From a cyanobacterium endosymbiont of Epithemia clementina EcSB (GTDB lineage: Bacteria; Cyanobacteriota; Cyanobacteriia; Cyanobacteriales; Microcystaceae), in the NCBI RefSeq assembly GCF_029919255.1, contig NZ_CP123991.1, positions 737,110-801,109 on the forward strand: 64,000 nt of DNA. The letters are read 5' to 3'. Within the stretch, counting starts at the first letter, position 1; the number at the start of each line of letters is the position of its first letter. The position numbers were made by a program, and so were the translations under genes. Positions 53,647 through 62,234 of the stretch are shown one piece after another. The notes below the pieces were generated by a model. The model was given only the letters and a program-made list of their open reading frames with translations, did no database searches and had not been told where the DNA came from.

Positions 53647-54516
53647 TTGACTTTGACACTCGCGGTTTACGGTAAAGGCGGTATTGGCAAATCTACTATA
53701 AGCTGTAATATTTCTACAGCATTAGCCAAACGAGGAAAGAAAGTCTTACAAATTGGTTGTGATCCTAAGCACGACAGTACCTTTACTCTAACTGGGTTCC
53801 TTATTCCTACTATTATTGATACCCTGCAAGAAAAAGACTTTCACTACGAAGACATTTGGCCTAAAGATGTCATCTACAAAGGCTATGCAGGAGTCGACTG
53901 CGTGGAAGCTGGTGGACCTCCAGCAGGGTTAGGTTGTGGAGGTTACGTAGTTGGAGAAACTGTTAAATTACTCAAAGAATTGAATGCATTTGATGAGTAT
54001 GACGTCATCATATTTGATGTGTTGGGTGATGTAGTTTGTGGTGGGTTTGCTGCACCGTTGAATTATGCAGATTATTGTTTAATTGTGACTGATAATAGCT
54101 TTGATGCCTTGTTTGCTGCTAACCGCATTGGTGCTTCAGTTCGAGAAAAAGCAAAGACTTATACCTTACGTTTGGCAGGGTTAATTGGAAACCGTACTTC
54201 TAAGCGTGATTTAATTGATAAATATATCGAAGCAGTTCCTATACCTGTGTTAGAAGTTTTACCCTTAATTGAGGATATTCGGGTTTCTCGTGTTCAGGGT
54301 AAAACTTTGTTTGAAATGTTAGATAAAAATCCCTCTCTTGAGTATATTTGTCATTACTATCTCAATATCGCTGACCAATTGTTAGCAATGCCAGAAGGAG
54401 TGGTTCCGAATAGTGTTCAAGATCGGGAATTGTTTACTCTTTTATCTGATTTCTATCTTAATCCTCAAACCCCTTCTAAGAGTAAAGAAGAAAAGTTAGA
54501 TTTTATGATAGTTTAG
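53647..54516 (+). CDS. chlL: Light-independent protochlorophyllide reductase, iron protein ChlL
   Basis: ATP-dependent reductase component of DPOR, related to nitrogenase Fe protein; it delivers electrons to ChlN-ChlB for chlorophyll synthesis in the dark. 289 residues. Walker [11 protein letters not shown] (8-17), Cys97 (PPAGLGCGG) and Cys131 (VVCGGF), which bridge the 4Fe-4S cluster between two subunits. The start is TTG at 53647 (MTLTLAVYG), fixed by family N-terminus and an AAGGAGA 10 bases upstream. All key residues are intact. chlN follows 237 bases later; chlB is not in this window. Confidence 0.96.
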
Positions 54517-54545
54517 TTTTTTAGCATTCTCTTTAAAACGATTTT

Positions 54546-54568
54546 AGATAAGGTCTTAGACCTTATCT
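54546..54568. repeat. Short inverted repeat after chlL
   Basis: AGATAAGGTCT (54546-54556) and AGACCTTATCT (54558-54568), one-base centre, 30 bases after the chlL stop. No T-run follows, so it may stabilise the chlL mRNA end or attenuate chlN rather than terminate fully. Confidence 0.6.
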
Positions 54569-54750
54569 ACGAACTAGTATTTGCAAAAAAATTGATCTAA
54601 AAATGAAGATTTAAGTTCTGAAGTTAGATTTTAGTCCTGACTAAAAAAATCAAAAAAAGAGCAAAAAAAATAAAATTATTTTCATGATTACCATTGGCAA
54701 CTAAAAAACTAGAATAAATCAGACAAAAAATTCAACCAAGAAAACTGTAA

Positions 54751-56142
<1,392 letters not shown>

Positions 56143-56883
56143 TTTTAATTGTGGGGTGAGCATTGCCAGTCCTACAGGTTATGTAGTGTTGATAATCAGC
56201 AATAATATGTGACTATTCTAAAATAAGCATGATTAATCGGTAGATGATAAGTTCTAAGATTTTTATCCTGAGTGTATTTTATAACGCCAAAAACTTGATT
56301 GCTATCAAGCTCAATTTGATAGGATTTTGGGAAGCTTGTAAAGCGAGACTTTTAGCTTTTATTTACGGCAATCTTAATTATTGCTGGGCCGGAAGAGCTT
56401 AATATTTTTATATCTTCTAAAAAATTGTTAATAAGTAAGTAAATTTAACTAAATTAAAAATAAGAAGGAATCAACTCAATTACGATAATTTATCCATGCT
56501 CTACAGGAAAAAAAGCTAAAAACACTGTAAATAGAAAGGAATAAATACAGCGATTATTATTAATAATAACTAAGTATATATAAGTACTTTAGTTAAAGTA
56601 AAACTGAAACATTTTTTGGATAAAAGTTGTATTTTTTCTATAAAGTTGTGGTTTTTAACTAGATTTAATACAAGTAAAAGAGCACAAAGTAAGAGCTCAT
56701 CTACTCGTCATACATATATTTTAAAAGTTAAACAACTTGGACAAAATAGCTAGACAAAGTATTGTCCAAAAAAGTTACTTTTAAGAAGTACCAATTAAGG
56801 CAATATAAATTAAACTCTGAATACTTAAATATAGAGATATACAATGGTTTATTTTTTACCTCTAGTAAAATAGAGCTACTTAC

Positions 56884-57090
56884 TTAGTATCGCTCTAGTT
56901 GAAGTTCAAATTGAGCTAAGATAGCTGTCAAATTAACCAATGCTACTTGCCAAACCTCATCTACTGACTTACTAATTAATAGCCATGTCTCAATTCTTTC
57001 GGGATAAGAAAGGATAACTAAATTACCAGCCACAATTTTATAAGAAAGAATTTGGATATTGTCAACGAAAACAGTTATAGTAATACTTAT
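56884..57090 (-). pseudogene. C-terminal remnant of an unidentified gene
   Basis: Minus-strand frame of 68 codons ending in TAA at 56884-56886. It reads IQILSYKIVAGNLVILSYPE, then RIETWLLISKSVDEVWQVAL, then TAILAQFELQLERY. It is cut upstream by an in-frame TAG (57091). Protein-like, but with no start; it looks like the tail of a conserved gene whose 5' part has decayed. Family not recognised. Confidence 0.45.
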
Positions 57091-57381
57091 CTAGTCGAGT
57101 AGCAACCCCAATGCCTAGCAACGTGTAATTATCTCTGTTAGTCTTCTTTGTTCTCCCATACAGATTTTACAGTCATAAAAATATGGTAAGTAGGGTTATC
57201 GCCACAATATTATCTCAAAGAATAATTCCCATCAAAGAAAACAACAGAATAAAACACCAAGTAAATAAAAATCATACTAAAAAGAGTCTAATAACCATAT
57301 CGATAATATTCGAATGACTTTATATCTCTATTAGATAGAGATACAGTTGATTATCAAATAATCTTACTTTGACTAACTAAA

Positions 57382-57438
57382 AAGTGAGCTAAGGTCTAAT
57401 TTTTATAGAATTAAACGATTAATTAACCTTGCTCACTT
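57382..57438 (-). terminator. Hairpin downstream of the SpoIID-like gene
   Basis: AAGTGAGCTAAGGT (57382-57395) pairs with ACCTTGCTCACTT (57426-57438) with a one-base bulge and a 30-base loop, 28 bases past the stop of the 57466 gene. Likely terminator for that minus-strand transcript. Confidence 0.5.
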
Positions 57439-57465
57439 GATGAATATCACCACACTGACCAAACT

Positions 57466-58614
57466 TTAATTTAAGGTCGTTAACCGTGCATTTTGATAGT
57501 AATGGCTGACAATTTGGTCATAGGAGATACCTTGTTCTGCTAGGTAATGACTGCCCCATTGACTCAGACCAATACCGTGCCCATAACCCCTACCATCAAT
57601 TTGAAATGTTTCATCATTGGCAGAAACAGTAAATAAGGTACTTTTAAGATCGAGAGCTTTTCGTAAATTGTCATCAGTAATGTTTTTAGAACCGCGAGTT
57701 CCTACTACTTTCAGGGTAATAATGCGTCCATGAGGGGTCGTTCGTTGGGGAATTAGTGATCGTACTGCTCCTATACCGCCGATGAGTCGTCCCATTTGAC
57801 TAGCACTAAAAGACTTACGCCATTGGAAAACGGGGGCAAGTTGATCGTAGTCCACTACACCACGCAGATAAGGTAGAGGAGAACTCCAGACATCTTCAAC
57901 ATTTTCGGTATGACCTCCAGACGAAGAATGGAAGGCTGCCAAGATGACCTTGCCATTGTGGGTTAATACCTGACCGGCTGTTCCATTAACCGCTTCATGA
58001 GTCGTGACGAATTCTGTTTCTAACCCCTTATACACTTGAGTTTTAGTGGTTGTGTCAAGATCGTAGTAACGATTTTCTGCCTTAGAACTTTTGTAGAGAG
58101 CATAGGTGCGGGCAACCACAGCTTGAGATTTGAGGGCTTCTATGGGCCAGGTTGGATAAGCTTCTGACCCCACCACACTGTAAAGATATTCCTCTAAATC
58201 GACCAAATTAACTGCCGTTACGCCATGTCCCTGACGAATTAATCGTACCTTGCCCCGATACCAGCGATCACCGATCCAAATAGAGCCGTTTTTAGTAGGT
58301 TCAATGATAATTTGACTAGAATTCCATTGATCGAGATTCACTCCACTATGATGAGGTTTCACGATAAAAGCCTCTAAATGAGTCAATTCTCCCAATTTAC
58401 GTCCTGATCCATCGCGGACTAGAGCAGGGGTAGAACTTCCCACCTTGAGGGTACCAACACCTTTTTCAATAGCAACTCTTAATTCAGTAGCTCCTTGAGC
58501 TGGAAGACTCAAAATCATCCAAATTAATCCTATTAACCAGCTATAGCGTCCCAACAAAATCTGTGAGAGTTTGAATGTCCAGACTCTAGAATATAAATCA
58601 TGGTTTTGTGACAT
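57466..58614 (-). CDS. SpoIID/LytB-domain cell-wall protein
   Basis: 382 residues. A signal-like hydrophobic segment (YSWLIGLIWMILSLPAQGA, about 24-42) implies export. The SpoIID domain follows: VDLEEYLYSVVGSEAYP, LKSQAVVARTYALYK, HSSSGGHTENVEDVW and the hallmark RGYGHGIGLSQWG near the C-terminus. In Bacillus SpoIID is a lytic transglycosylase acting on denuded glycan; the cyanobacterial proteins are inferred to remodel peptidoglycan. The segment covering residues 43-123 has a decayed copy just upstream. Confidence 0.88.
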   Translation of the reverse strand: MSQNHDLYSRVWTFKLSQILLGRYSWLIGLIWMILSLPAQGATELRVAIEKGVGTLKVGSSTPALVRDGSGRKLGELTHLEAFIVKPHHSGVNLDQWNSSQIIIEPTKNGSIWIGDRWYRGKVRLIRQGHGVTAVNLVDLEEYLYSVVGSEAYPTWPIEALKSQAVVARTYALYKSSKAENRYYDLDTTTKTQVYKGLETEFVTTHEAVNGTAGQVLTHNGKVILAAFHSSSGGHTENVEDVWSSPLPYLRGVVDYDQLAPVFQWRKSFSASQMGRLIGGIGAVRSLIPQRTTPHGRIITLKVVGTRGSKNITDDNLRKALDLKSTLFTVSANDETFQIDGRGYGHGIGLSQWGSHYLAEQGISYDQIVSHYYQNARLTTLN

Positions 58615-58800
58615 TTACTTGTTTTCCTCACACACATCCACAAATATAAAAATCTTATCGCAAAATTCAAGAGATTTGAGAGGTGATTACACATACTGAG
58701 AAAACTTCGGATAGATAGCGTAAATAAGTTTAACTCTGTACATAAATTACTGTAAACAAACTAAATTAACTATTTTTATGCCATTTTCTTGACTAATTAG

Positions 58801-59045
58801 TGATACTTTGCCTCAATACCAACGATCACCATTCTAAAATAAAGCCGTCTTTGGTAGGTTCAACGACAATTTAATTGGAATTCCAATCAATGGAATTCAT
58901 TCCACTACGATGAGGTTTCAAAGCAAAAGCCTCTAAACTGAAGTCAATTCTCCTAATTTGCAGTTTGCCCCATCGCGGACTAAAGCAGGAGTAGAAATAC
59001 CCACTTTTAGAATACCAACGCCTTTCTTAATAGCAACTCTTAAAT
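58801..59045 (-). pseudogene. Decayed second copy of the SpoIID-like gene (partial)
   Basis: This stretch lines up base for base, with scattered differences and small indels, with 58246-58485 inside the neighbouring SpoIID-like gene. Shared blocks include TTGGTAGGTTCAA, CATCGCGGACTA, AAGCCTCTAAA and TAGCAACTCTTAA. Only residues about 43-123 of the protein are represented and frameshifts break it. Same strand and orientation, so it is the remains of a tandem duplicate. Confidence 0.85.
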
Positions 59046-59135
59046 AGAGTCCTTTGTTTGTATGAGCCTTATATCAGAAAAACAGGCAACTTTCCAGTGA
59101 AAGACTTAGCTTTAAGACGCCGAATAATTGCAAAT

Positions 59136-59185
59136 CTATCCCATCTAGTGCCTATTTTTAATAGAACAGGCGCTAGATGGGATAG
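59136..59185. repeat. Inverted repeat (18-base arms, one G-T pair)
   Basis: CTATCCCATCTAGTGCCT (59136-59153) pairs with 59168-59185 with one wobble. It is relatively GC-rich. It sits beyond the 5' side of the decayed duplicate and before the 59227 frame. Confidence 0.8.
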
Positions 59186-59226
59186 AGAGATAAACACTAT
59201 AGAATAGGAAAACATCCATTGAGCTC

Positions 59227-59478
59227 ATGTCAACTTCTCTCTCTTTAACTATTCTTAATTATTTCCTTGACATTCTCTATTCCTTTGACATCCAACTCAC
59301 CACGTTTGGTGAGAGTTTTAGAGGACACGCGAAAGTTAAGGGGATCGTCTTCTACGATCAGAATGCTTGTCATAGACCCCAAAGGCATAAAGATAGATTA
59401 CTGATTTTTAGTGATTTGGGTAAGATTAAAGAGACTATCGAGCTGCTCCAAGAAACAGGAATGACTCTATCAACTTGA
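59227..59478 (+). CDS. Possible small protein, unrecognised
   Basis: 83 codons starting MSTSLSLTILNYFLDILYSF, with a soluble second half (IVFYDQNACHRPQRHKDRLL; KETIELLQETGMTLST). The C-terminal helix looks protein-like, but there is no clear ribosome-binding site and no known domain. It may be a fragment of a lost gene. Confidence 0.35.
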   Translation: MSTSLSLTILNYFLDILYSFDIQLTTFGESFRGHAKVKGIVFYDQNACHRPQRHKDRLLIFSDLGKIKETIELLQETGMTLST

Positions 59479-59717
59479 TATCTGATTGGAAATCAACTCC
59501 CACAAACTACGTTAAATAAGCCCTGCCGGACTAACCCCCTAGCTCTAAATTAGGAGGGGATTCAAGTTTTTGGGTAATATCTTAATAATCAACGCGAATT
59601 GCTAATGGTCAGCCTACATTCGATGCAATTTATCCACAAGTTGCTTAGTGATCAAGTTAAGTTAAATTTAAGGGCTCTTATTGTAAACCGACAGAACATT
59701 CTTATCAAGAAACTTCA

Positions 59718-62234
59718 ATGACAAGACAGCTAAACGTATTACGGACGGGTCAAATTATCCCAACCGCATTGCATACAGAAATGCAACGCTCTTATCTTGA
59801 ATATGCCATGAGCGTTATTGTCGGGCGGGCTTTACCTGATGTTCGTGATGGACTTAAGCCCGTCCATCGGCGGATCCTCTATGCAATGTATGAATTGGGA
59901 TTAACCCCAGATCGCCCTTTTCGTAAATGCGCTAGGGTAGTTGGAGACGTGTTAGGAAAATATCATCCTCATGGTGATCAAGCCGTATATGATGCCCTGG
60001 TGCGGATGGTACAAGATTTTTCGAGTCGTTATCCTCTCCTATCAGGTCACGGAAACTTTGGGTCAGTGGATAATGATCCTCCCGCGGCAATGCGCTACAC
60101 GGAAACACGACTGGCCGCCATTGCTGAGCGCGGGATGTTGAACGATATCAGTGATTCAACTGTTGATTTTACCAATAATTTCGATAATTCTCAACAAGAA
60201 CCCGTTGTTTTACCAGCTCAACTTCCCATTTTACTCCTCAATGGGTGTACCGGAATTGCTGTGGGGATGGCGACAAGTATCCCCCCCCACAATTTAGGGG
60301 AATTAGTTGATGGTTTAATTGCTCTGATCGATAACCCTAATATTTCTGATGAGAAGTTATGGAAAATTATTCCTGGTCCTGATTTTCCCACTGGAGGGCA
60401 AATTATCAACACAAACGGTGTGAAGGAAGCTTATGCGACAGGACGCGGCATAATTCCTGTTCGGGGAGTGACTCGTATTGAAACCCTCAATGTAGGACGA
60501 CGACGACGCAAAGAACGCACTGCTATTATCGTCACAGAATTGCCTTATCAAGTCAATAAGTCTGGTTGGATTGAAAAAATGGCAGATCTGGTTAACCAAG
60601 GAAGCCTAGAGGGCATTGCCGATATTCGGGATGAGAGTGATCGCACGGGAATGCGGGTTGTTATTGAATTAAAACGAGATGCTAACTCCAACACTGTCTT
60701 GAAAGGACTTTATAAAAAAACTGCTCTACAGAGTAATTTTGGAATGATTTCATTAGCTTTAGTGGATAATAAACCATGCCAGCTTTCTTTACGTCAGTTA
60801 TTAGAAGAATTCTTAAAATTTCGAGAACAAACTCTAACACGGCAATATGGCCATGAGTTGAAAGAAGCACAAAACCGTGTCCACTTATTGGAGGGGTTGT
60901 TAATAGCCCTCAATAATCTTGATCAGGTGATTGACATTCTACGAAATGCTGCCGATGGAACTACTGCTAAATTTAGGTTTCAAAAGAAATTAGAAATTAG
61001 TGATGCTCAAGCTAACGCTATTTTGGCAATGCCAATGCGTCGTCTAACAGGGTTAGAACAGGAAAAATTACAGGCCGAATATCATGAATTACAAACTCGT
61101 ATTAATAAATTACAAACTCTATTAAATGACCGTCATGAACTGTTAAAAACTCTTAAGAAAGATCTACGATCACTAAAACGTAATTTTGGTGATCCTCGTC
61201 GCACTAAAATGGTTACTCCCACCAAAGACACGAAAGCTAAATCAACAAAAAGTGATTCTAAACCCAAATCATCTTTCTCTAAACAAGAGAATAATTCGGA
61301 AAGAAAATCACAATCTTCGGAGTTACCCCAACCATTAACCCTCTTTTCTTTTCAAAAACCCCCTGAAGATGCAATCTTAGAGATTACCCATAGTAGTGAA
61401 GCAGCTTGGCGATTGCCTAAAATTAAAGGACTCAATCACCTTGTTTATTCTGAAACCATTGGACAAAAAACCGAGTTAATAGTAATTACCGATGCCAGTA
61501 AAGCTTATCCTATCACCGTATCGGAAATTCCTCCTGTTACGATTCAATCAATTTCTCTGTTGAGTCTTTTAGCAAAAGGAACGCAACGAAATGTAAATCG
61601 GATTATTTATTCAGGTTTTCTACCTCAGCAGTTGGAAAGTCAAGATTTATTATTATTAACCAAACTCGGACGTATTAAACGTATTGCAATGTCCCAATTG
61701 GCCAGTCTAACCAATCGAGGATTAGTGTTGGTGAAACTTAAGGACGGTGATCGTCTTGACTATGCTTGTCCTACTCAAGAAGGGCAAGAAGTAGTGATTG
61801 CTACTTCAGGAGGACGTGTATTACGTCTCTCAGTTACTGATGAGATGATTGGCGTAATGGGACGAAATGCTCAAGGAAATCAGGCGTTAAAATTCCGTTA
61901 TGGAGAAACCATAGTTGGTTGTGTTACTCTGAATTTAGAGAAAGATATTCTCTTAATTTCAAGTCTTGGTTATGGTAAACGCTTGTCTTTAAAAGACATC
62001 AGAGCGGGAAAGTTGGGGGATATTGGTCATCAATGTCTACAATTCAAAAGTAAAACAGATGGTTTAGGGAGAATGATATTGGCTAAAGACGAAGGAGAAA
62101 TTACATTACTCACCAATCAAAACCGTTCTTTAGTCGTGCCAATTAGTTCGATTCCATTTTTGGGTAAAGATGGCACAGGGGATAGGTTAGTCAAACTTCA
62201 ATCAGAGGAAATAATTATTAATGTATTAAGTTGA
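59718..62234 (+). CDS. gyrA: DNA gyrase / topoisomerase IV subunit A
   Basis: Type IIA topoisomerase subunit that cleaves and passes DNA. 838 residues. [21 protein letters not shown] and [10 protein letters not shown] lead to the active-site Tyr127 in [11 protein letters not shown]. The coiled tower follows, then a polar linker (about 495-540, [15 protein letters not shown]) and a six-bladed C-terminal domain. I cannot find the GyrA-box (QRRGGRG type) in that domain, so this may be the ParC-like paralogue that many cyanobacteria carry beside true gyrA. Confidence 0.88.

Follow-up and report, generated by a model that had tools for sequence, protein, structure and literature searches.

The four spheroid-body genomes listed in Table 1 of PMC11131595 carry 99–148 predicted pseudogenes each, and the available part of that paper states that the non-coding regions of spheroid bodies likely hold degraded remnants which are hard to identify. 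The locus described here resembles these pseudogenes, as far as that part treats them: its gene remnants are dead and drift, and it comes from the same group. It differs from them in that a copied piece of a neighbouring gene adjoins a broken regulator gene, in an arrangement common to several genomes. The copied gene belongs to the SpoIID/LytB family (PF08486, TIGR02669; solved SpoIID chains 4rwr, 5i1t and 5txu), whereas the fragment represents only its N-terminal part and stops ~10 nt before the Glu151 codon. The broken gene corresponds to the DivK/CheY-like single-domain regulators (PF00072; 1m5t), of which SU2 has an intact homologue but the symbionts keep only a broken 5′ part.

We analysed a window of 64,000 nt from EcSB (G000), a diatom endosymbiont or ‘spheroid body’ whose genome is one 3,072,807-base contig. 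The locus was compared with those of RgSB (Rhopalodia gibberula symbiont), EtSB (Epithemia turgida symbiont) and the E. pelagica symbiont (record uoEpiScrs1), which are the nearest to the window, followed by SU2, UBA12306 (a metagenome assembly) and Rippkaea orientalis PCC 8801 (G006). The available part of PMC11131595 names SU2, from coastal Zanzibar, and R. orientalis as the nearest relatives known for spheroid bodies. In the spoIID tree, EcSB, RgSB and EtSB are the freshwater symbionts and the E. pelagica symbiont is the marine one. The junction between regulator remnant and spoIID fragment is referred to as the left joint, and that between fragment and spoIID leader as the right joint (Table 1).

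Table 1. Coordinates in the window of the features at the spoIID–gyrA locus
Feature	Position	Strand	Evidence
Intact SpoIID/LytB-domain gene (spoIID), 382 aa, source of the copy	57466..58614	-	PF08486, TIGR02669, dN/dS
Leader, from fragment to spoIID start, 118 nt	58615..58732	-	spacer alignment
Decayed copy of spoIID nt 119–440 (codons about 40–147)	58733..59054	-	alignment, synteny, tree
Remnant of a response-regulator gene of the DivK-like single-domain type (5′ part)	59055..59373	-	alignment to relatives
50-nt near-perfect inverted repeat in the regulator remnant	59136..59185	-	alignment; absent from SU2 and UBA12306
83-aa open frame, partly antisense to the regulator remnant	59227..59478	+	no Pfam match
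gyrA-type gene, neighbour in the four symbionts, SU2 and UBA12306	59718..62234	+	PF00521, PF03989, synteny

The intact spoIID gene and the decayed copy beside it

The product of the intact gene matched PF08486 with E 3e-27 (95.5 bits against a cut-off of 23; domain at codons 129–219) and TIGR02669 with E 9e-74 (248.9 bits against 83.3), which places it in the SpoIID/LytB family. It fell below the cut-off of TIGR02870, the stage II sporulation protein D equivalog model (189.4 against 234.75 bits). Glu151, the conserved Glu of the domain, falls on the Glu in ‘VVASE’ of 4rwr and is presumably the catalytic residue. The gene is full length in all four diatom-symbiont genomes compared, the whole-gene dN/dS among them is 0.11–0.20, and a 44-nt leader block just before its start (58621–58664) is 95% identical to SU2. 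spoIID is under purifying selection, and the first-pass annotation, which saw in this locus the loss of a wall-remodelling enzyme, is contradicted on this point.

When the window was searched with the spoIID gene by blastn, one significant second match was obtained, on the same strand, joining gene nt 133–440 to 59043–58733 with 77.2% identity over 311 columns (E 3e-62). A Smith-Waterman alignment of gene nt 119–440 with the copied interval scored 270, whereas 1000 dinucleotide-shuffled versions of the spacer reached at most 34, and a repeat search resolved the fragment and gene pair into two adjacent ungapped blocks (102 nt at 81% and 101 nt at 80% identity). The frame of the fragment is broken, as judged by three TGA, two TAG and one TAA within the read-through match to spoIID residues 43–148. 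The first-pass annotation had read a decayed tandem duplicate of the SpoIID-like gene at 58801–59045, matching residues 43–123. A non-functional partial duplicate is indeed present in tandem with the gene, on the same strand and with in-frame stops, and an identity no better than chance is decisively refuted by the pairwise alignment; the proposed limits were somewhat short, since the match reaches 58733 and residue 147.

The fragment has an intact paralogue, a disabled frame and a neutral substitution pattern, and is thus a duplicated pseudogene. Because it spans codons about 40–147 against a domain at 129–219, it holds no complete SpoIID domain in an open frame and does not itself qualify for the family. 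Because the first 118 nt of the gene, which hold the start and the N-terminal end, and almost the whole SpoIID domain are missing from it, it probably never functioned as a second gene. Beside the fragment, no spoIID signal past nt 440 or before nt 118 exceeded the shuffles in any of the four symbionts. The 62 nt to its right matched neither spoIID nor the end of the regulator above shuffles, and their resemblance to the SU2 and UBA12306 spacers was marginal at best (score reached by 23 to 490 of 500 shuffles).

The first-pass annotation had suggested that relatives may carry two tandem spoIID copies. Among 50 genomes of the family, 47 match spoIID at E<=1e-60, 46 of them at one place, and neither a second full-length copy nor a pair of complete adjacent genes was found at this threshold. 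The exception is G041, where two partial pieces (80% and 62% identity) lie close to contig starts and two genes are possible. A 383-aa SpoIID-family paralogue of SU2 (L140, 576–1727) has full matches in G001, G004 and G006 and is whole in UBA12306. It gave no full match in the four diatom symbionts or G013; in G000, G002, G003, G005 and G013 this query returned nothing but matches to other family members. A third member, of about 525–546 aa, was found in 8 of 8 genomes.

The response regulator formerly at the site

The gene order in SU2 and UBA12306 is gyrA, response regulator, spoIID. In these two genomes and in R. orientalis the regulator is intact and open, about 133–136 aa long and directly upstream of spoIID. 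A PF00072 receiver domain is present in this syntenic gene of the relatives (L038, L039); the SU2 protein matches PF00072 with E 4e-20, and its best solved match is DivK (1m5t, E 6e-17). The window remnant matches in frame only residues 1–40 (68% identity) and holds no complete receiver domain. In EcSB, RgSB and EtSB the remnant carries the same +1 frameshift and a shared insertion some 30 nt long, and about 150 nt are gone within the remnant of the E. pelagica symbiont. The gene lost at this site is therefore a response regulator, not a wall enzyme.

In local alignments the regulator can be traced to nt 263–287 in EcSB and EtSB and to nt 184 in RgSB, and the fragment comes next. The last 60 nt before the left joint were compared with the regulators of SU2 and UBA12306, respectively. 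The match was good for EcSB (scores reached by 1 and 0 of 500 shuffles), weaker for EtSB (32 and 2) and poor for both RgSB (385 and 27) and the E. pelagica symbiont (282 and 30).

Of 29 genomes searched, 23 gave a long match to the regulator, and none was obtained at E 1e-10 in G002, G003, G005, G013 and G028; EcSB keeps residues 1–40 only. The gene is thus broken or missing in the four diatom symbionts, G013 and G028. Leaving out the four diatom symbionts and G013, it is kept in 23 of the 24 other genomes, a set not sorted by lifestyle. This makes it more likely that the regulator was broken after host entry; it is possible that a free-living ancestor had already lost it.

Two further features lie in or over the regulator remnant. 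One arm of the inverted repeat is old regulator sequence, of which the other seems to be an inverted copy, and the repeat is perhaps the product of a template switch. EtSB also carries it, with three pairs changed on both sides, and in RgSB the insertion is present but pairs poorly. A dispersed element was considered and rejected, since a 101-nt query found its own site, on both strands, and no other. The 83-aa open frame was likewise discarded as a gene, as its frame is split in RgSB and EtSB, and is probably spurious.

Shared joints and neutral decay among the symbionts

The fragments of RgSB and EtSB end exactly as in EcSB, at gene nt 440 and 118 nt before the spoIID ATG. The E. pelagica symbiont carries a heavily eroded version, of which 67 nt match the gene at 76% (E 4e-9) and 177 nt match the EcSB fragment at 69% (E 1e-10). 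The half of its spacer that covers fragment and leader aligns with that of EcSB at 66% (425 columns, E 4e-44). When the fragment was used as a DNA query, second copies were obtained in G000, G002 and G005, and none was among the matches listed for the E. pelagica symbiont. A 15-nt anchor over the right edge, chosen by eye for each genome, begins 125 nt before the ATG in all four. The right-joint stretches of EcSB, RgSB and EtSB matched the E. pelagica spacer with scores reached by 1, 0 and 0 of 500 shuffles, respectively, and the left-joint windows of the same three with scores reached by 3, 26 and 2.

A tree of 11 spoIID genes and 4 fragments unites all the fragments in a single clade (100/98), which is nested in the clade of the endosymbionts (99/99). 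Pairing of a fragment with its own gene was rejected for EcSB (p 0.003), RgSB (p 0.007) and EtSB (p 1e-7), and not quite rejected for the E. pelagica symbiont (p 0.0585). It is thus well supported that the fragment was copied once, in the ancestor of EcSB, RgSB and EtSB. In the best tree the fragments stand beside the three freshwater genes with the E. pelagica gene outside (84/79). This placement would therefore date the copy after the E. pelagica split, in conflict with the fragment found in that symbiont; a tree holding the four symbiont genes together, as the reading preferred here requires, was not rejected (p 0.179). Position, joints and the fragment clade make it likely, at a weaker level than for the other three, that the E. 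pelagica remnant stems from the same event. The event most likely preceded the split of marine and freshwater symbionts, the eroded marine copy being the weak point of this dating.

The fragments of the freshwater symbionts evolve without a codon-position pattern and with dN/dS of 0.83–1.09, compared with 0.16–0.25 for the four genes over the corresponding stretch. Identity among these three genomes is 78–81% in the fragment, 84–85% in the regulator remnant and 90–93% in the gyrA-side spacer. The greater divergence of the fragment than of the neighbouring remnant and spacer is not predicted by uniform drift. The 344 nt before gyrA (59374–59717), to which the last value refers, have no Rfam match and may be constrained as the leader of gyrA. 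More generally, no Rfam match at gathering scores was observed across 56000–60000, and a scan for promoters and terminators was no richer than shuffles.

Origin of the arrangement and its meaning for the symbionts

We consider it highly probable that, in the common ancestor of the diatom endosymbionts and after the split from SU2, a single rearrangement put the spoIID piece on the 3′ part of the regulator, and that both have decayed since. About 320 nt of spoIID (nt 119–440) would have landed within or on top of the 3′ part of the regulator just upstream, and the regulator would have lost its 3′ end. The regulator piece and the spoIID fragment would then have drifted as dead DNA, with spoIID keeping its conserved leader block and staying under selection. 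The comparisons above establish the copy and its limits, its presence in EcSB, RgSB and EtSB by descent from one origin, the neutral pattern of all three, and an intact regulator in the relatives. The copying itself may have proceeded by a local replication slip, in the form of a tandem duplication and a later deletion or of two template switches. At the left joint the alignments, read by eye, show a possible AAGGGG overlap, which hints at a replication slip. The regulator may or may not have been dead by the time of copying.

A full-length tandem duplicate of spoIID that was trimmed by deletion at both its 5′ and 3′ sides before the endosymbionts diverged, and is now decaying, would also give a same-strand copy of protein-coding origin in tandem with the gene. 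This history is unlikely. It needs extra deletions, it would have to leave the same right limit in three symbionts, and neither a second full copy in the 50 family genomes (E<=1e-60) nor any spoIID signal outside nt 119–440 beside the four fragments was found. The identical right limit also speaks against the earlier suggestion of a wall-enzyme loss under way here. Separate duplications, or gene conversion, in each lineage could draw on the weak placement of the E. pelagica copy and of its gene. Nevertheless, the strength of the fragment clade, the rejection of own-gene pairing in three of four cases, the common right limit and the frameshift and insertion shared by three adjoining regulator remnants make such independent events very improbable.

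Persistence of the fragment, at least in part, in all four symbionts could be taken as a sign that it is kept for a function, as a regulatory RNA, a leader peptide or a recombination donor for spoIID. This we regard as the least credible of the readings weighed here, because the three freshwater fragments show no codon-position bias and a dN/dS about 1, private indels have accumulated, and no Rfam family matches. Moreover, the E. pelagica copy is 56–60% identical in a codon-forced alignment (71–73% with gaps), and the fragment has the same sense as spoIID and hence is not antisense. The single rearrangement onto the regulator is thus preferred.

Two other observations were made in the window. 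The chlL and chlN frames are open at 53647–56142, which may fit the description of the E. clementina symbiont in PMC12903740, and the EtSB copies are in pieces; the available part of PMC5638926 describes how RgSB and EtSB differ in chlL/chlN. Three inverted-repeat pairs at 1843–2055/50981–51204 and 50610–50677/56783–56850 (173 nt at 71%, 45 nt at 80% and 68 nt at 78%) are perhaps remnants of a dispersed element.

As to the literature, a search of titles and abstract openings found none dealing with this locus, and we do not claim that the locus is unreported. ‘SpoIID’ is absent from PMC12903740 and ‘duplicat’ from PMC5638926, as are the terms sought from PMC11070190.

Taken in itself, the locus is a case of ordinary reductive evolution and genome decay. 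Its wider interest lies in the history of the symbiosis. In the available part of PMC12903740, multiple and single acquisitions of the symbionts are weighed and left open, the E. pelagica symbiont being the odd one. If the E. pelagica remnant represents this scar, the break in the regulator goes back to the common ancestor, and the same joints with a broken regulator in marine and freshwater symbionts would be hard to explain unless their last common ancestor had them. Because that ancestor may still have lived outside a host, the marker supports a single acquisition and does not prove it. We see even chances that the chimeric scar arose within a diatom cell and passed by inheritance to every rhopalodiacean endosymbiont sampled, including the marine E. 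pelagica symbiont. If so, it would be a rare, hard-to-repeat genomic marker of one acquisition.
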